Source: a gamma proteobacterium HdN1 (lineage in GTDB: Bacteria > Pseudomonadota > Gammaproteobacteria > Pseudomonadales > Ketobacteraceae). Taken from it: a stretch of 64,000 nucleotides of DNA. The translations under genes were made by a program, and so were the position numbers. Shown here piece by piece: positions 7,126 through 51,053 of the stretch (its first letter is position 1; every line of letters starts with the position of its first letter). The notes below the pieces were generated by a model. That model did not search any database, was not told where the DNA came from, and saw only the letters and a list, made by a program, of their open reading frames with translations. Where the stretch lies: the NCBI GenBank assembly GCA_000198515.1, contig FP929140.1, positions 3,942,527 to 4,006,526 of the forward strand, given 5' to 3'.

Positions 7126-8022
7126 ATGAGGCGGGAGCTGTCTGTGGTGAAGTCCTATTATCAAATGTTTTGTATTGCCCGTGCAGCGCTCCTTGGCGCC
7201 TTTGGTTGGGGGAGCTCTTGTGTTGCGTTTGGCTTAATTAGCTATCAGGCGCCGATGGATGCGACCACTTGGAATGTCGAGCAATCGCCGCTTGAATGCC
7301 GCATCTGGCAGCCGGTGCCGGGCTATGGGGATGCGGTATTTTCCAAGCGATCAGGGGAGGCGTTAGAATTTTTTTTGGAGAGCCTGCAGCCCGCGTGGCG
7401 AAGCGGAACCGCAAATTTGTTTGTGGCTCCACCGGCATGGCAAAGCGGGTTGTCTACCTTCTCTTTGGGAACGGTAAAATCCGTTACCGGAAAGCGCCCC
7501 GTCACCGTTGGGGAGGGGGTGGCGCTGCGGTTTATTCGCGAGCTTGAACAGGGCAAGGTGCCTACCGTGCAGACTTCGGGGGAGTTGGCCACGCGCGTGG
7601 GGGTTTCTGCGGTAAATTTTGGCGGTGCTTACCAGAGCTACCAGAATTGTGTGGGCGCGATGTTCCCTGCGAACTACGAGCAGCTTAAAGCATCGGTTTT
7701 GCACTATGCTTCCGAGCAATGGAAGCCAGATGGCAAGGCGCAGGCGAGGCTGGATTTGATTGCTGGCTATCAAAAGCTTGATGCAGGCATCCGCAAAATT
7801 TTTGTGGACGGCCATTCGGATACGATGGGGCGCTTGGGCCACAACTGGGAAGTTTCTCGCCTGCGTGCCAATGCGGTGCGTGAATACCTCATTGCCAAGG
7901 GGGTGCCGGAAGAAATGATTGTGATGCGCTATTGGGGCAAGAGTCGCCCGATTGATAAGCGCGGCAATCGTAAGAGCAGCCCCGCCAACCGGCGCGTTGT
8001 GGTGCAAATGGTGAAAGCATAG
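7126..8022 (+). CDS. motY: Sodium-type flagellar motor protein MotY-like (OmpA C-terminal domain)
   Basis: MotY forms a periplasmic ring around the flagellar basal body and anchors the stator to peptidoglycan. The 298 residues have a hydrophobic N-terminal export segment, a MotY-type beta-rich domain (about 40-190) and an OmpA-like peptidoglycan-binding domain with DGHSDTMG and the NWEVSRLRANAVREYL helix. The context between rnt and argG is that of motY in Pseudomonas, which supports the name. Start choice is uncertain: ATG 7126 has GAGGGG only a few bases away, while GTG 7147 (Met-Lys-Ser-Tyr) gives a shorter leader. A generic OmpA-domain lipoprotein is less likely, since no lipobox cysteine precedes the mature part. 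Confidence 0.8.
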   Translation: MRRELSVVKSYYQMFCIARAALLGAFGWGSSCVAFGLISYQAPMDATTWNVEQSPLECRIWQPVPGYGDAVFSKRSGEALEFFLESLQPAWRSGTANLFVAPPAWQSGLSTFSLGTVKSVTGKRPVTVGEGVALRFIRELEQGKVPTVQTSGELATRVGVSAVNFGGAYQSYQNCVGAMFPANYEQLKASVLHYASEQWKPDGKAQARLDLIAGYQKLDAGIRKIFVDGHSDTMGRLGHNWEVSRLRANAVREYLIAKGVPEEMIVMRYWGKSRPIDKRGNRKSSPANRRVVVQMVKA

Positions 8023-8150
8023 CGCGCTACCCTAGGCAGTCTCTCGCCAAGTCGCTAAAATGGCGGCGGTGTTTCGGATGACGCGTGCTTGCGTCTTGAT
8101 CGGCCTCGCGCCCCGGCCAGAAATGGTTCCCCCTCTTATAAGGTTTCTCC

Positions 8151-9365
8151 ATGTCAGATATTAAAAAAGTCGTGCTTGCCTATTCGGGCGGCTTGGATAC
8201 GTCCATTATTCTCAAGTGGCTGCAAGAAAACTATCAATGCGAAGTCGTGACCTTTACTGCGGATTTGGGGCAGGGTGAAGAGTTGGAGCCTGCGCGCCAG
8301 AAAGCCGCTGGCTTAGGCATCAAAGAAATCTATATTGAAGATCTGCGTGAAGAATTTGCCCGCGACTTTGTTTTCCCGATGTTCCGCGCGAACACTCTGT
8401 ACGAAGGCGAATACCTGCTCGGCACCTCGATTGCGCGCCCGCTAATCGCCAAGCGCTTGGTGGAAATTGCCAACGAAACCCAAGCCGATGCGATCTCTCA
8501 CGGCGCAACTGGCAAGGGCAACGATCAGGTGCGCTTTGAGCTGGGCGCCTATGCTCTCAAGCCCGGCATCAAAGTGATTGCACCGTGGCGCGAATGGGAT
8601 CTGAACTCCCGCGAATCTCTGCTGGCCTATGCCGAAAAACACGCCATCCCCGTCGAAAAGAAAAAAGGCAAATCGCCCTATTCGATGGACGCCAACCTTC
8701 TCCATATCTCCTACGAAGGCGGCATCCTCGAAGATACCTGGGCCGAAGCCGAAGACGATATGTGGCGTTGGTCGGTTAGCCCAGAAAACGCGCCTGACAA
8801 AGCCACCTATATCGAAATACGCTTTGAAAATGGCGACCCTGTAGCGGTAGATGGCGTCAACATGAGCCCCGCCCAGCTGCTCGCCCACCTCAACAAAATC
8901 GGCGGCGCGAATGGTATTGGCCGCCTTGATCTGGTTGAGAACCGCTATGTGGGCATGAAGTCTCGGGGTTGCTACGAAACCCCAGGCGGCACGATCCTAC
9001 TCAAAGCGCATCGCGGCATCGAGTCCATCACCTTGGATCGTGAAACCGCTCACCTGAAAGACGATCTGATGCCACGCTACGCCAGCTTGGTATACAACGG
9101 CTACTGGTGGTCGCCAGAGCGCCTTGCGCTGCAAGCTCTGATTGATCAGACCCAGCAATATGTTTCGGGTGATGTGCGTCTGAAGCTCTATAAGGGAAGC
9201 GTGTCGGTCGTAGGCCGCCGTTCGGATCACAGCCTGTTCGATCTTTCTATCGCCACGTTCGAAGACGATCGCGGTGCTTACAATCAAAAAGACGCCGAAG
9301 GCTTCATCCGCCTGAATGCACTGCGTATGCGCATTGCGGCGAACAAAGGGCGCAAGCTGAAGTAA
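8151..9365 (+). CDS. argG: Argininosuccinate synthase
   Basis: Joins citrulline and aspartate using ATP in the penultimate step of arginine synthesis. The 404 residues start with the PP-loop [10 protein letters not shown] (about 10-19), followed by [13 protein letters not shown] and the C-terminal tetramer-forming region, all of normal length. ATG 8151 has AAGG about 8 bases upstream. A stem-loop without a T-run follows the stop. It stands alone, with a 128-base gap to motY. Confidence 0.97.
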
Positions 9366-9377
9366 GCGCAAAGCCTT

Positions 9378-9408
9378 CTCAAGCCCTGCGGAAAAGACGG
9401 GGCTTGAG
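9378..9408 (+). terminator. Stem-loop after argG
   Basis: CTCAAGCCC (9378-9386) pairs perfectly with GGGCTTGAG (9400-9408) around a 13-base loop, 13 bases after the argG stop. No run of T follows, so it may be an mRNA-stabilising hairpin or a weak terminator. Confidence 0.5.
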
Positions 9409-9489
9409 TCGGTCGCCGATCGAAAAGCTAACTATACTGGTCTAACCACTTCTCTTTGGAAGGCTTTGGCAGGCCAGTAGCGCGTACTT

Positions 9490-11538
9490 ATGTCCGATGA
9501 ACCATCCAACCCCTTACGTCCAGTTTTAGAGGAGCCTCCGGCTTTAGAGGAGCTTCCCGTTCTGGAGGAGCCTGCGCTTTCTCTGTTTCTGGGAATTACC
9601 GATGCTGCGATTCTGTTCGTACCCGATGGGCGCGTGTTTGCGACCAATTCGGCGGCGGAGCAGCTCTTTGGCGTATCGGAAGGTGCAGTGCGGGGGCAAT
9701 TGTTCGACCGTATCATCCCTTGCCCTCGCGAATACGCCGGAAATGTGCCTCGCTACGTGGCTGATTTCTGTGAGGCGAATAGCGAGCCGTTCTCTCACCC
9801 CGTAGTGGCTTTGTGCGGTACACAAACGCGCTTGAGCCTTCTGGTAAGACGTACCTCCCTCATGCTCGGTGCAGTTGCTTGCAGCCTTCTATTTTTTCAG
9901 GATATTTCGGAGCTTGTCGAGTCGCAGCGTTTGCTTCAGCAAAAGGTAACCAATAGCGCTGGATTGTCGGCTGCCAAAAGCCGCTTTTTGAGCCATTTGG
10001 CGGGGAATATGCCGCGCCCGCTGGCCGTGTTGCGTGGGGTGCTTCGCCAACAGTTGGACGGCGAATCAAATTCGCCGCAATTGCATCAAGAGCTCGCCCT
10101 TGGTTGGCAGGCGCTCGGAGAGCTGCAGAAGCTGCACAGTGAGATTTCAGACTTTAGCCAGCTTGAGAGCAATCATTTTGAATTTCAGTTGGCGTGTTTT
10201 AACGCCCGCTTCGTAATTGACGGTTTGTTAGAACACTTTCAGGAACAGGCTAACCGTTACAACCTTGAATTTGCGACGCTGGTGGCTCCCAGTGTTCCTG
10301 AATTTTTGATTGGCGACCCGGATCGTTTGCAGCAGATTTTACGTTGCTTACTGGCGGAATCGTTCCGCTCTACCACTGAAGGCGGCGTTACCATCCGTGC
10401 TCAATGCTTAGCAGAAACCGATACGCATGCCACGATTGAATTTGAAATCAGCGACACTGGACAGGGGTTAAGTGATCGAGTTCGCAAGGATTATCAAGCT
10501 TTGCTGGAAAACCCGCGCACATCATTTGCAGATCAACTGGGCGAATTAGGGGTGGGAATTGCCATTGCGAACGAACTCATTGGGCGTATGGGGGGGCGGT
10601 TAACTTTGCGTTCTACCGAAAACGTGGGGACGACCTATGCAGTATCGCTCAAGTTCGAACAGGGTGAACGCCTACAAAATGAGGTGCGCCAGTTAACGGG
10701 GCGGCGTGCGTTATTCGTAAATGATGTGTTGAGCGATCGTGCCTGGATGACGGACATCTGCAAAGTAGAACGCATGCAATGCGAATGGGTGGGTACCTGT
10801 GAGCATGCGGTGAAGCGCTTGTGCCAAGAAAGCGCAACGCTTACGCCTTTTGATTTTGTGGTGATTGATTTACATGGCTTGAAAACAGAAGGCGCACTTT
10901 TAATTGAGGAGATTCATAGCCGTGAGGAGCTAAAAAGCACCGCCATTGTGATGCTGGTGGATGCGAATGAGGGAATTACGCCTGTAGTGGCCAGCAGTAT
11001 GAGAGTGAACGTGCTCCTCGCGAAGCCGGTGGGTAAAAACCTGATGCTACAAGCGCTGCGTGCGGCGCTTGTGCAGCGGCGGCAGGCACAACCGATGCTG
11101 GTAACGCAGCATTTGCTGAATGCTGGCGAATTGCGTGCACAACGCTCATTGTTAGTGGATGATAACGAGGTCAATCAGATCATCGCCAAAGGAGCCTTGC
11201 GCCGCTTGGGGATTACTGCTGATGTGACGAATAATGGTGAAGAAGCGATTGATGCAGTGCGCGATAATCAGTACGATTTTATTCTGATGGATTGTGAGAT
11301 GCCGATTATGGACGGCTTTGAAGCAACTCGGTTGATACGCGCGTGGGAGCAGAAGTGTGGGCGGCATACGACCATTATTGCCTTGACTGCAAATTCTAGT
11401 GATGAGATTTATAGACAGTGTTTGCAGGCGGGGATGGATGATTTCATGCAAAAACCCTTTCGAGCCGATCAGCTTCAAGCCATTCTCGATAGAATCGCAA
11501 GGCAGCGAATCGAAGCCAGCCAAGGGATTGGCGGCTGA
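9490..11538 (+). CDS. Degenerate hybrid histidine kinase with PAS and two receiver domains
   Basis: 682-residue soluble signalling protein. In order: a Pro/Glu-rich N-terminal repeat (VLEEPPALEELPVLEEPALS), a PAS domain (about 30-140), a DHp-like helical region (about 155-225), a HATPase_c domain (about 265-390), a first receiver (about 405-520; Asp in FVVIDLHG) and a canonical second receiver (about 550-670; Asp601, Lys655). The H-box reads FLSHLAGNMPRPL (166-178). Gly172-Asn173 sit where phospho-acceptor His-Glu are expected. The N-box Asn is also lost (GDPDRLQQILRCLLAES), although DTGQGL and GVGIAI remain. Autophosphorylation is therefore unlikely, and it may be a phosphate acceptor or scaffold. 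The next signalling gene starts 33 bases after the stop. Confidence 0.85.
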   Translation: MSDEPSNPLRPVLEEPPALEELPVLEEPALSLFLGITDAAILFVPDGRVFATNSAAEQLFGVSEGAVRGQLFDRIIPCPREYAGNVPRYVADFCEANSEPFSHPVVALCGTQTRLSLLVRRTSLMLGAVACSLLFFQDISELVESQRLLQQKVTNSAGLSAAKSRFLSHLAGNMPRPLAVLRGVLRQQLDGESNSPQLHQELALGWQALGELQKLHSEISDFSQLESNHFEFQLACFNARFVIDGLLEHFQEQANRYNLEFATLVAPSVPEFLIGDPDRLQQILRCLLAESFRSTTEGGVTIRAQCLAETDTHATIEFEISDTGQGLSDRVRKDYQALLENPRTSFADQLGELGVGIAIANELIGRMGGRLTLRSTENVGTTYAVSLKFEQGERLQNEVRQLTGRRALFVNDVLSDRAWMTDICKVERMQCEWVGTCEHAVKRLCQESATLTPFDFVVIDLHGLKTEGALLIEEIHSREELKSTAIVMLVDANEGITPVVASSMRVNVLLAKPVGKNLMLQALRAALVQRRQAQPMLVTQHLLNAGELRAQRSLLVDDNEVNQIIAKGALRRLGITADVTNNGEEAIDAVRDNQYDFILMDCEMPIMDGFEATRLIRAWEQKCGRHTTIIALTANSSDEIYRQCLQAGMDDFMQKPFRADQLQAILDRIARQRIEASQGIGG

Positions 11539-45100: not shown

Positions 45101-45222
45101 GATTGCCTAGTTGAGAAATTGCCTAGTTGAGAAATTGCCTAGTTGAGAAATTGCCTAGTTGAGAAATTGCCTAGTTGAGAAATTGCCTAGTTGAGAAATT
45201 GCCTAGCCGGGAGATTGCCTAG
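45101..45222 (-). repeat. 16-bp tandem array after the 573-residue protein gene
   Basis: Six identical contiguous copies of TTGAGAAATTGCCTAG (plus strand, 45111-45206), flanked by a partial copy at 45101 and a diverged copy at 45207-45222. The stop codon of the minus-strand gene (45219-45221) lies in the last diverged unit. On the gene strand each copy carries the in-phase word CAACTAG, i.e. Asn-stop. Confidence 0.97.
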
Positions 45223-46940
45223 TTGAGCAGGTGAGCGTCCATTACCTTGAAGAAAGGTGTGCTCATCAGCGTGTTGCCAATATGGGCGCGGGTAGGCTCA
45301 TCATCGTGGGGGGACGCGATTTCCACGATACCAGGCGTATAGTGGACGCTCGGTGCGCAGAATAAATACTGGTGCGATCCGCTTCGGCTGCTGGAAAACA
45401 GTAACGCAGCGCGAGCTGCTTTATCGCATTCGTACTCCGCGTTGTGATCGACCAGAGCGACGGCGCGAGCGCTCATTTCGACACGCGAGGCACCCAAAAC
45501 CAGCGAGCCGTCGCCATTGTCGCTTACCCAGCGAACGATCCCGATTGTGGCTGGCGCTCTTTGCTCACGGCAGGTGGTAAGCAACAGCTCGCCGGGCTGC
45601 AGAAAGGGTTTGAACTCTACGGGCAGCTGAAAGCGAAAGCCACCGACACTTTCTTCAAGATATTGCGCACTCAGAAAGTGGGATACATGTTCAGCAAAGT
45701 GCCCCGTTTTTGTCTTGCCGCCGTTGCTAAACCAACGATGGATGTCGGCAAAGCTCCACACCAACTCGCAGCCCTCCTGCTTGCGCTTTCGCGCGAGAGT
45801 GCGGTGCTTTTGGCAGCGCCAACTCACTTGCAGGTGGCCAAGCAGTTGATCGAAGTGCTCAGAAGCTTGCGCATTCGCGTAAATATCGCTCTCCGAAAGC
45901 GCGCGGCTAGCGGAGGTGTGGATAAAGCCCGTAGAGTGTAAGCCTGCAGCGAGCGATGCCTTGGCGTGATCCGCAAACCAGCGATCACGCTTATGTTCAA
46001 GTTGATTGCAGATTCCGTCTGTAGCAAGCAGCCTCGCTTGCGGGTGCGACCCAGCCGGTTTTTGGCGCAAGCGTAGCGGGCCTTCATCACTGTCTAATCG
46101 CACACCCAAGGCAGCCGTCACTACGTCCAAGTTATCAGGATGTACCATCCGGCTGATGCTGGCCATGCGCGTCGTAAAGCCAATCACCCAGCGCGTATCG
46201 GTTTGCGACAGGCTGTACGGGTTTGCGCCGGCCACCAAAAGCAGCTGCACGTATTGGTCGTGAATATCCGGCATTGCCCCAGTCAGGCGATAGCGGCAGG
46301 TGGCACGGTGCAAGCGCCGATCTTCGGCAGCGGCGTAGAGCAGATGTGCTTCGCGCCAAGTGTGAGAGGGTTGCCGGATGTGTAAAGCGTAGCGTTGCAG
46401 CATTGCCTGCACGTGAAAAAACAGTGCAAGGTAAAGATAGTTTGCGTATTCCTGCGTGCTGGCGCCGTGTGGTTCGGCGTCAATCAGACAAAGCTTGTAG
46501 GCGATCGCGAGCTCTTCACAAAAACCGATAAGGCCGCCGTCCCCCTTACAGGCATAAAGGCTATCCCCACCCATGGCTACAGGTTGCGTGGGAGTTTCGG
46601 CAAGGCGAGAGAACGCGGTGTGAAACCAAGCCGTGATATCCGCACGCCGGCTATGGACTAAATAGTGTTGATTCAGATGGCGTAGACGGCTGCGCGCAAT
46701 CGTTAACGCCATTACCGGATCGGCGTAGGGCAGGGCTCGTATCTGCTCTGCGATTGCGTCGGCGCGGCCTGCGGGCAATGCGTGATGGACGCGGTCGAGC
46801 TGAGGGGCGTGTAATTGGGATAGCCACGAGATGCGCCCGCGAGCTTGGCTCAAGCTTGAAGAGGGGGTTGTACCCGTTTTTGCTTCCACCGCAAGTTTCT
46901 TGAGGGGTGGGCTAACGTGAATCGGGTTAAATGAGCTCAT
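45219..46940 (-). CDS. Unrecognised 573-residue cytoplasmic protein, possibly PilZ-like
   Basis: No signal peptide or membrane helix. The first 110 residues are helical with LPAGRADAIAEQIRALPYAD and LTIARSRLRHLNQHYL segments. This layout recalls a group of large proteobacterial proteins annotated as c-di-GMP- or PilZ-related. Near 460-530 the stretch ending IGIVRWVSDNGDGSLVLGAS resembles the 'G-x-V-x-W ... G-x' strand pattern of PilZ-type beta barrels, but a clear RxxxR motif is not evident. The middle has many His, Arg and Trp. I cannot assign a function. It is single-gene, divergent from fumarase, and its stop is embedded in a 16-bp repeat array. Confidence 0.6.
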   Translation of the reverse strand: MSSFNPIHVSPPLKKLAVEAKTGTTPSSSLSQARGRISWLSQLHAPQLDRVHHALPAGRADAIAEQIRALPYADPVMALTIARSRLRHLNQHYLVHSRRADITAWFHTAFSRLAETPTQPVAMGGDSLYACKGDGGLIGFCEELAIAYKLCLIDAEPHGASTQEYANYLYLALFFHVQAMLQRYALHIRQPSHTWREAHLLYAAAEDRRLHRATCRYRLTGAMPDIHDQYVQLLLVAGANPYSLSQTDTRWVIGFTTRMASISRMVHPDNLDVVTAALGVRLDSDEGPLRLRQKPAGSHPQARLLATDGICNQLEHKRDRWFADHAKASLAAGLHSTGFIHTSASRALSESDIYANAQASEHFDQLLGHLQVSWRCQKHRTLARKRKQEGCELVWSFADIHRWFSNGGKTKTGHFAEHVSHFLSAQYLEESVGGFRFQLPVEFKPFLQPGELLLTTCREQRAPATIGIVRWVSDNGDGSLVLGASRVEMSARAVALVDHNAEYECDKAARAALLFSSSRSGSHQYLFCAPSVHYTPGIVEIASPHDDEPTRAHIGNTLMSTPFFKVMDAHLLN

Positions 46941-49095: not shown

Positions 49096-49461
49096 ATGCC
49101 AATTCCGTTGTTGATTTGCGATGATTCCGTGATGGCACGCAAGCAAGTGCGCCGCGCGCTCCCAGAAGATTGGGACGTAGAGGTGACGATGGCTGCCAAC
49201 GGGCTTGAAGGGCTGGATGCGATTCGTAAAGGCCAAGGCGAAATGGTGTTTCTTGACCTGACCATGCCGGAGTTGGATGGCTATGGCGTGTTGGAGGCGG
49301 TACGGAATGAAGGGCTTAAGTGTATAGTGATTGTCATCTCTGCCGATATACAACCTGAAGCCCGCGAGCGTGTTCAAAAACTCGGCGCGCTCGACTTTAT
49401 CAAAAAACCGGTAGATGGAAAAAAATTGCAGGAAGTGCTTGAGAGGTACGGCTTGTTATGA
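49096..49461 (+). CDS. Single-domain response regulator (CheY-like)
   Basis: 121 residues, one receiver domain: ICDDSVMARKQ with the acidic pair, the phospho-Asp in MVFLDLTMPELDG, Ser in VISAD and Lys in FIKKPVDG. No output domain. Its stop overlaps the next gene start (ATGA), so it is translationally coupled to a CheC-like phosphatase and, through it, to a diguanylate cyclase. The kinase is not in this cluster. Confidence 0.95.
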   Translation: MPIPLLICDDSVMARKQVRRALPEDWDVEVTMAANGLEGLDAIRKGQGEMVFLDLTMPELDGYGVLEAVRNEGLKCIVIVISADIQPEARERVQKLGALDFIKKPVDGKKLQEVLERYGLL

Positions 49462-50093
49462 GCGACACACTGGCGCTAACGGAAGACCAGAGGGACTGCC
49501 TGCAAGAGGTAGTGAATGTCGCAATGGGGCGCGCGGGGGATTCGTTGGCGCGATTTTTAGAGGTGTTTATCGAACTCTCCGTACCAAGAATACGGCTCGT
49601 TGATCGCGATAAGCTTCCTGTAGAACTCATTGCGTTAGTAGGCGGAACAGACTGCTTCGTGTCTGGTGTGACACAGGGTTTTTTCCATGCGGATGACGGC
49701 AAGGGGGTGCGCGGTGAAGCCATCGTGGTGTTCACGGATTCGTCCTTTAAATCGCTTGCCGACTTGCTTGCCTATGACGGTGAGGTAAACGCAGAAGCGG
49801 AAAAAGAGCTTTTATTGGACGTTACCAACGTTCTGAATGGCGCGTGTTTGAACGGAATTGGCGAGCAGATCGAAGCAGAGCTTGCCTTTTCACCACCCAC
49901 ACTGCTCGGCCAACATGTCAAGATTTCCCAACTGCTGGCTCATGAGCGCCTGACGTGGGAACACGCGCTGCTGGTAGAAATTTCCTATACCCTTGAAAAC
50001 CGCTCGTTCAACTGCACCATGTTTTTACTAATGCCGGGTGAGTCGATCGAAGTGGTAAAAACAGCGCTTGATCGACTTCTGGAAGACTTGTAA
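49458..50093 (+). CDS. CheC/CheX family phosphatase-like protein
   Basis: 211 residues with two copies of the CheC-type phosphatase signature. The first is Asp13-x3-Glu17-x2-Asn20 with Pro43 exactly 22 residues later. The second is Glu117-x3-Asp121-x2-Asn124 with Pro147 at the same spacing, Asp replacing the usual Glu. Family members dephosphorylate CheY-P. Overlap with the receiver gene suggests that receiver is the substrate. The downstream cyclase starts right after its stop. Two near-intact sites suggest an active enzyme. Confidence 0.85.
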   Translation: MSDTLALTEDQRDCLQEVVNVAMGRAGDSLARFLEVFIELSVPRIRLVDRDKLPVELIALVGGTDCFVSGVTQGFFHADDGKGVRGEAIVVFTDSSFKSLADLLAYDGEVNAEAEKELLLDVTNVLNGACLNGIGEQIEAELAFSPPTLLGQHVKISQLLAHERLTWEHALLVEISYTLENRSFNCTMFLLMPGESIEVVKTALDRLLEDL

Positions 50094-51053
50094 GTGGAAG
50101 AGAACCTGCCAAGCCGTGATTTACTTGGATTTATCGTAGATCGAGCCAATATCGGCGTTTTCATTCTGAACGAAGCCTTGGAAGTTCAGCTATGGAACCG
50201 TTTCATGGCTTCCAACAGCGGAAAAAATGCCGATGAAGTGGTTGGGCATAAACTTTTCGACTGCTTTCCCGAACTTCCTCAGCGCTGGTTTGCAAAAAAA
50301 ATCAGCAGCGTGTTTATGCTGAAAAATTTTGCCTTTACTTCTTGGGAGCAGCGCCCTTACCTGTTTCCGTTTCGGCACAATCGCCCCGTCACGAGCGGTA
50401 TGGAATTCATGTGCCAAGATGTCACCCTGATGCCCATCAAAAACGAGGCTGGCGAGGTCGAAAAAGTGTGCGTCATTCTCTTTGACGTGACCGACACAGC
50501 GATTTATCGCACCATGCACCAAGCAGCGATTAAAAAGTTGGAAATGGTTTCTCGCATTGATGGCCTGACTCAGCTTTTTAACCGTAGCCACTGGCAGTCG
50601 CGCCTAAACGAAGAATTCAGCCGTTCGGCGCGTTACCAAACGCCGCTCTCCTTGATCATGTTTGATCTCGATTTTTTCAAAAACGTCAACGACACCTACG
50701 GCCATCTAGGGGGGGACGCTGTCCTGTGCGCCGTTTCTGCAGTGATTAAGAACTCGGTACGCGAAAACGACATCGCAGGGCGTTACGGCGGCGAAGAATT
50801 TGGCATTTTGCTGCCAAATACCCCAGAAAGCGGCGCAATGATCGTCGCGGAACGCATCCGTGCGTCCATCGAGGCAACAACCATTCCCTTTGAGGACTAT
50901 GAAATCCGTGCGACGGCAAGCCTAGGCGTTACTGAGTATAAGGCGACCGTGCCGGATTGCGAAAACCTGATCGCGCGCGCCGATGCCGCACTTTACAAAG
51001 CCAAAGAAGCTGGCCGGAACCGCGTGATTCTTTTTACTGAAGAAATCCATTAG
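50094..51053 (+). CDS. Diguanylate cyclase (PAS-GGDEF)
   Basis: 319 residues: an N-terminal PAS domain (about 8-140, LGFIVDRANIGVFILNEALE) and a GGDEF domain (about 155-315). The active site GGEEF (232-236) and inhibitory RxxD motif (223-226) are intact. GTG 50094 directly follows the CheC-like stop. It is soluble. The receiver-phosphatase-cyclase order suggests c-di-GMP output controlled by a phospho-receiver and a dedicated phosphatase. Confidence 0.93.
   Translation: MEENLPSRDLLGFIVDRANIGVFILNEALEVQLWNRFMASNSGKNADEVVGHKLFDCFPELPQRWFAKKISSVFMLKNFAFTSWEQRPYLFPFRHNRPVTSGMEFMCQDVTLMPIKNEAGEVEKVCVILFDVTDTAIYRTMHQAAIKKLEMVSRIDGLTQLFNRSHWQSRLNEEFSRSARYQTPLSLIMFDLDFFKNVNDTYGHLGGDAVLCAVSAVIKNSVRENDIAGRYGGEEFGILLPNTPESGAMIVAERIRASIEATTIPFEDYEIRATASLGVTEYKATVPDCENLIARADAALYKAKEAGRNRVILFTEEIH

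Follow-up and report, generated by a model that had tools for sequence, protein, structure and literature searches.

The window, the whole 64,000-nt stretch of gamma proteobacterium HdN1 (contig FP929140.1) that was analyzed, carries at positions 49096 to 51053 three overlapping or abutting genes on the plus strand, which by open reading frame (ORF) and Pfam analysis encode a receiver, a CheC-fold protein, and a PAS-GGDEF protein. The receiver gene (49096 to 49461, 121 aa) starts with ATG and its stop codon contains the start of the CheC-like gene (49458 to 50093, 211 aa) in a 4-nt ATGA overlap, while the GTG start of the PAS-GGDEF gene (50094 to 51053, 319 aa) directly abuts the CheC stop codon; the positions agree with the preliminary description of this DNA. 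Upstream of the trio lies a fumarase gene in the same orientation, downstream lies proS on the other strand, and these neighbours include no che or flagellar gene. Scanned for promoters and terminators, the operon gave matches no more numerous than in shuffled sequence. On the minus strand, opposite to the fumarase gene and a few hundred bases upstream of it, a 573-aa ORF (45219 to 46940) had no Pfam match even at an E value of 0.05.

The first protein matched Pfam Response_reg at 3.8e-22 and holds the complete active-site set of D9/D10, the phospho-acceptor D54, S82, and K104, with D54 and K104 invariant in all 82 distinct homologues scored. With a full DD/D/S-T/K set and no output domain, it is the stand-alone, single-domain response regulator that had been proposed.

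Chemotaxis is the setting in which CheC-type phosphatases are mainly known. The second protein had been called CheC-type, and the assignment holds by predicted fold, though its Pfam scores are below the curated cut-offs (CheX, 6.8e-5 and 23.3 bits versus 27; CheC, 0.0056 and 17 bits versus 22); these cut-offs are annotation thresholds and weaker evidence than fold. The structure predicted from a 31-sequence alignment (pLDDT 85.8) matched Thermotoga CheC 1xkr with Z 19.4 over 193 residues, as well as 3qta (Z 19.1) and 2f9z (Z 18.8). After Thermotoga CheC, the list continued with other CheC, FliY, FliM, and CheX chains, including CheX of the CheX-CheY-BeF3 complex (3hzh, Z 13.8), and then Z fell from 12.9 to 4.2, so the modelled protein has the CheC/CheX/FliY superfamily fold with its two-fold repeat. 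Two phosphatase signatures at exact spacing had also been described, of which the first, together with the spacing of both, was confirmed, whereas the second was found without its catalytic Glu. Signature 1 (49494 to 49586, residues 13 to 43, D13-x3-E17-x2-N20-x22-P43) fits [DS]x3ExxNx22P exactly, an arrangement arising in 0.05% of shuffled proteins, and E17 was invariant in all 104 readable and N20 in all 105 distinct homologues. Signature 2 (49806 to 49898, residues 117 to 147) keeps the spacing but has Asp121 where the catalytic Glu is expected; of the 105 distinct homologues, 98 have D and 7 have E at this position, and 13 have S or G at position 124. Judged from these residues, the protein has one canonical and one degenerate phosphatase signature in place of two canonical CheC active sites, and it is probably the phosphatase of its neighbouring receiver.

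The third protein was described as an intact PAS-GGDEF cyclase, and this stood: GGDEF was matched at 5.6e-48 and PAS_4/PAS above cut-off, with GGEEF at residue 232 and an intact RxxD I-site at residue 223. The full GGDEF domain with a GG[DE]EF signature predicts an active diguanylate cyclase. The PAS region (about residues 1 to 149, 50094 to 50540) belongs to a dedicated subfamily that is constant across the relatives of the third gene. In an alignment of 140 sequences comprising GGDEF, kinase, and PAS-only versions, it was defined by the motif WNxFM...FxSWEQRPYLFxF...RPxTG...MxQ, whose unusual residues (W34, N35, F37, M38, S42, W84, R87, P88, T100, M106, and Q108) are common to PAS domains across the different outputs.

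The search for a conserved trio that the preliminary description had called for found it well beyond HdN1, and the objection that it might be confined to this genome falls. A relative of the CheC-like protein was carried by 66 of 369 genomes drawn from the class, and at all of the 30 best loci in that sample relatives of the receiver, the CheC-like protein, and the PAS protein were present. A scan of 84,980 species genomes confirmed at least 556 relatives of the CheC-like protein, the best 80 of which were all from gamma- and betaproteobacteria, with Ketobacter as the nearest genus-named relative among the matches listed. Relatives in both the class sample and the species-wide scan rule out an oddity specific to the window. 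No viral copies were confirmed.

In a combined set of 110 loci (the window's own among them; 105 distinct CheC sequences once duplicates are removed), a PAS-protein relative stood alongside the CheC gene in every case, and this also held for most of the distant homologues. A separate receiver gene adjoined the CheC gene in 61 of the 110 loci, receiver and CheC were fused in 26 (and in 54 of the 149 loci of a larger, non-redundant collection), and no adjacent receiver was seen in 23, some of them because the contig ends. Around the trio in 80 loci, no other gene family recurred in more than 13, with the exception of a cluster found at 33 that seems to consist of antisense reading frames lying across the trio; no shared chemotaxis neighbour was recognised and no common wider neighbourhood hinting at function was found in these loci.

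The association of receiver and CheC was also kept where their genes had separated. Eight of nine searched genomes without an adjacent receiver hold one elsewhere that is 67 to 76% identical to that of the window, the next receivers in their lists reaching at most 38% identity; in the ninth (L075, a 2.5-Mb draft), no matching receiver was found. In one of the eight (L132, 1435 to 2551), this receiver adjoins a second CheC-like gene, whereas the CheC-PAS-GGDEF pair lies at another place in that genome. Together, the fusions and the co-retention of unlinked receivers support a receiver-CheC pair kept for function. The divergence of the three proteins was correlated (Mantel r 0.66 to 0.83), as expected from shared descent alone. 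The model of a fused receiver-CheC orthologue (pTM 0.61, linker pLDDT < 50) gave no firm interface, and no CheC-PAS fusion was seen. In genomes whose receiver gene lies elsewhere, the CheC and PAS genes are still neighbours, and the CheC-like protein therefore appears to be the closer partner of the PAS protein.

The output attached to the PAS domain varied. In a census of 149 non-redundant loci, among which close relatives are over-represented, the third gene encoded PAS-GGDEF with an intact signature in 111 loci and with a degenerate one in 5, PAS with a histidine kinase in 10, PAS with GGDEF-EAL in 2, PAS with Hpt, ATPase, and CheX domains in 1 (L039), and a PAS-sized protein alone in 14, in most cases following a fused receiver-CheC; of the 14, one (L069) resembles a broken cyclase gene. 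Two loci (L017 and L116) were scored without a PAS gene, yet a PAS-GGDEF relative is present in both. In L039, an Algicola locus (7636 to 10560), the third protein has 974 aa with PAS, Hpt, HATPase, and a C-terminal CheX, which by its domains would be a CheA-like kinase with a phosphatase domain built in. In four loci of the Oceanospirillaceae/Thalassolituus type (L083, L085, L099, and L101), the GGDEF-like domain is kept and the GG(D/E)EF signature is lost, suggesting a non-catalytic output. The constant core is receiver-CheC-PAS, and the cyclase is not an invariant part of it. Because the third gene may encode a PAS-kinase, a PAS-GGDEF-EAL protein, or PAS alone, the c-di-GMP output put forward earlier stands for the window but not as the general output of the family.

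We consider that there is about an even chance that the trio is a self-contained unit in which the CheC-like protein erases receiver phosphorylation at one site and relays the phosphorylation state to the PAS-cyclase. A histidine kinase encoded elsewhere would phosphorylate the receiver at Asp54; the CheC-like protein would bind the phosphorylated receiver and hydrolyse its phosphoryl group at the single canonical site Glu17/Asn20, limiting the lifetime of the signal; and, while bound, it would engage the third protein's PAS domain differently, comparable to Bacillus CheC-CheD, thereby raising or lowering the rate at which the intact GGDEF domain, subject to product inhibition, makes the biofilm signal c-di-GMP. 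The domains, active residues, CheC fold, linkage, fusions, and swapped outputs are taken from sequence or model, and from them we infer the phosphatase activity, the CheC-PAS contact, the direction of control, the identity of the kinase, and a role in flagellated cells. The fused receiver-CheC model with its uncertain interface and the failure to find a CheC-PAS fusion speak against the relay. In Bacillus subtilis, phosphorylated CheY strengthens CheC-CheD binding, and this binding matters more for chemotaxis than the phosphatase activity of CheC (PMC3513319). By analogy, this precedent for CheC as a phospho-responsive binding partner would strengthen the proposed relay. In a wider form, which we regard as a reasonable possibility falling somewhat short of even, the CheC-like protein bound to the phosphorylated receiver would be an adaptor gating whatever is attached to the PAS domain, be it a cyclase, GGDEF-EAL, a histidine kinase, a CheA-like kinase, or nothing, and receiver-CheC-PAS would be a widespread, undescribed core outside chemotaxis.

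Isolated receivers often act by protein-protein contact. The unit could also be a simple timer, as the preliminary description suggested, in which the PAS-GGDEF protein is bound and activated directly by the phosphorylated receiver, the CheC-like protein being only an eraser; this agrees with the intact phosphatase and receiver sites and with the frequent working mode of isolated receivers known in general, but it sits poorly with the linkage that CheC and PAS genes keep where the receiver gene has moved away, and we consider it rather unlikely.

The PAS-kinase versions would fit an input role, and the PAS protein could sit upstream of the receiver instead of downstream. It would then be the sensor that controls CheC activity or receiver phosphorylation, the receiver would carry the signal onward, for example to flagella or pili, and the cyclase would be a side branch or feedback. 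At least 10 relatives have a PAS-histidine kinase as the third protein, an obvious donor for the receiver, 14 have a PAS domain alone and hence no output enzyme, and the four degenerate GGDEF domains (L083, L085, L099, and L101) lack the signature. Against this stands the ratio of 111 intact to 5 degenerate cyclase signatures; a signature nearly always intact where there is a cyclase indicates that the enzyme's product is under selection, and we judge this reversed order unlikely.

The genomes with close homologues of the CheC-like protein also have CheZ. At a threshold of E <= 0.001, a CheZ match was found in all 45 genomes with a close homologue (in G221 just a fragment where the contig ends) compared to 109 of the 324 others (Fisher 1e-19, uncorrected for kinship), and in 14 of 21 genomes with only a distant homologue. 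That the CheC-like protein mainly dephosphorylates flagellar CheY, as an accessory chemotaxis phosphatase, agrees with the CheZ-type chemotaxis system of all 45 genomes but is very improbable as its main role, since CheZ already does that job in them, CheC has a receiver of its own to which it is fused or linked, and no chemotaxis genes lie at the locus. With CheZ in every close-homologue genome, it is unlikely that the CheC-like protein serves as the flagellar CheY phosphatase, and we read the trio as inhabiting cells with CheZ-type chemotaxis without supplying that enzyme. The unit may plausibly have to do with motility or with attachment to surfaces.

Returning to the preferred relay through the CheC-like protein, its parts are of known kinds, namely, a single-domain receiver, a CheC-fold phosphatase, and a PAS-GGDEF protein. 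No paper describing the trio was found in the open-access literature searched, which does not prove that a description is absent, and no biochemistry on any member of the trio family was found there. To our knowledge, the SiaABCD system of Pseudomonas aeruginosa has no CheC-fold protein, and its switch is a threonine phosphorylation, not the Asp phosphorylation of a receiver. It is similar in that a small partner protein with switched phosphorylation activates a diguanylate cyclase (PMC8457831, PMC7647112). In the HptB-HsbR-HsbA-HsbD pathway of the same species, a two-component pathway controls the diguanylate cyclase HsbD via its partner HsbA; going by its description, the relay there is an anti-anti-sigma factor and not a CheC-fold protein (PMC5085249). 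The CheY-P phosphatases of the CheC type (Thermotoga CheC 1xkr/2f9z and B. subtilis CheC) share the fold (Z 19.4) and the first signature with the window's protein, and in B. subtilis a phosphorylated receiver modulates CheC binding to a partner (PMC3513319). In contrast to these, the window's protein has a degenerate second site and its own receiver and PAS partner instead of CheD and flagellar CheY, and its family occurs in genomes where CheZ is already present.

"CheC-like" orphan response regulators of the REC-CheC type are listed in Pseudomonas syringae (e.g., PSYR0886/PSPTO1039), and, compared by domain content, they have the same two domains in the layout of the fused members of the window's family; they are listed there without a function or a PAS partner (PMC2222644). 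In the window, the two domains are encoded by separate genes and do not form the single protein that defines the REC-CheC class. A biofilm transcriptome showed a change in a Shewanella gene that bears the name cheC (PMC9257041) and is a possible member of the window's family. The conserved unit, present in hundreds of gamma- and betaproteobacterial genomes, would tie a CheC-type protein to its own receiver and a PAS-controlled output. If the relay is true, it would be a candidate path by which two-component signalling reaches c-di-GMP, and it would give a function to at least some of the REC-CheC response regulators that genome surveys leave without one. A candidate for the kinase type serving the receiver-CheC family was found directly beside a distant receiver-CheC pair (L111, 4915 to 8001), where the hybrid kinase encoded combines MASE3, PAS, HisKA, HATPase, receiver, and Hpt domains.
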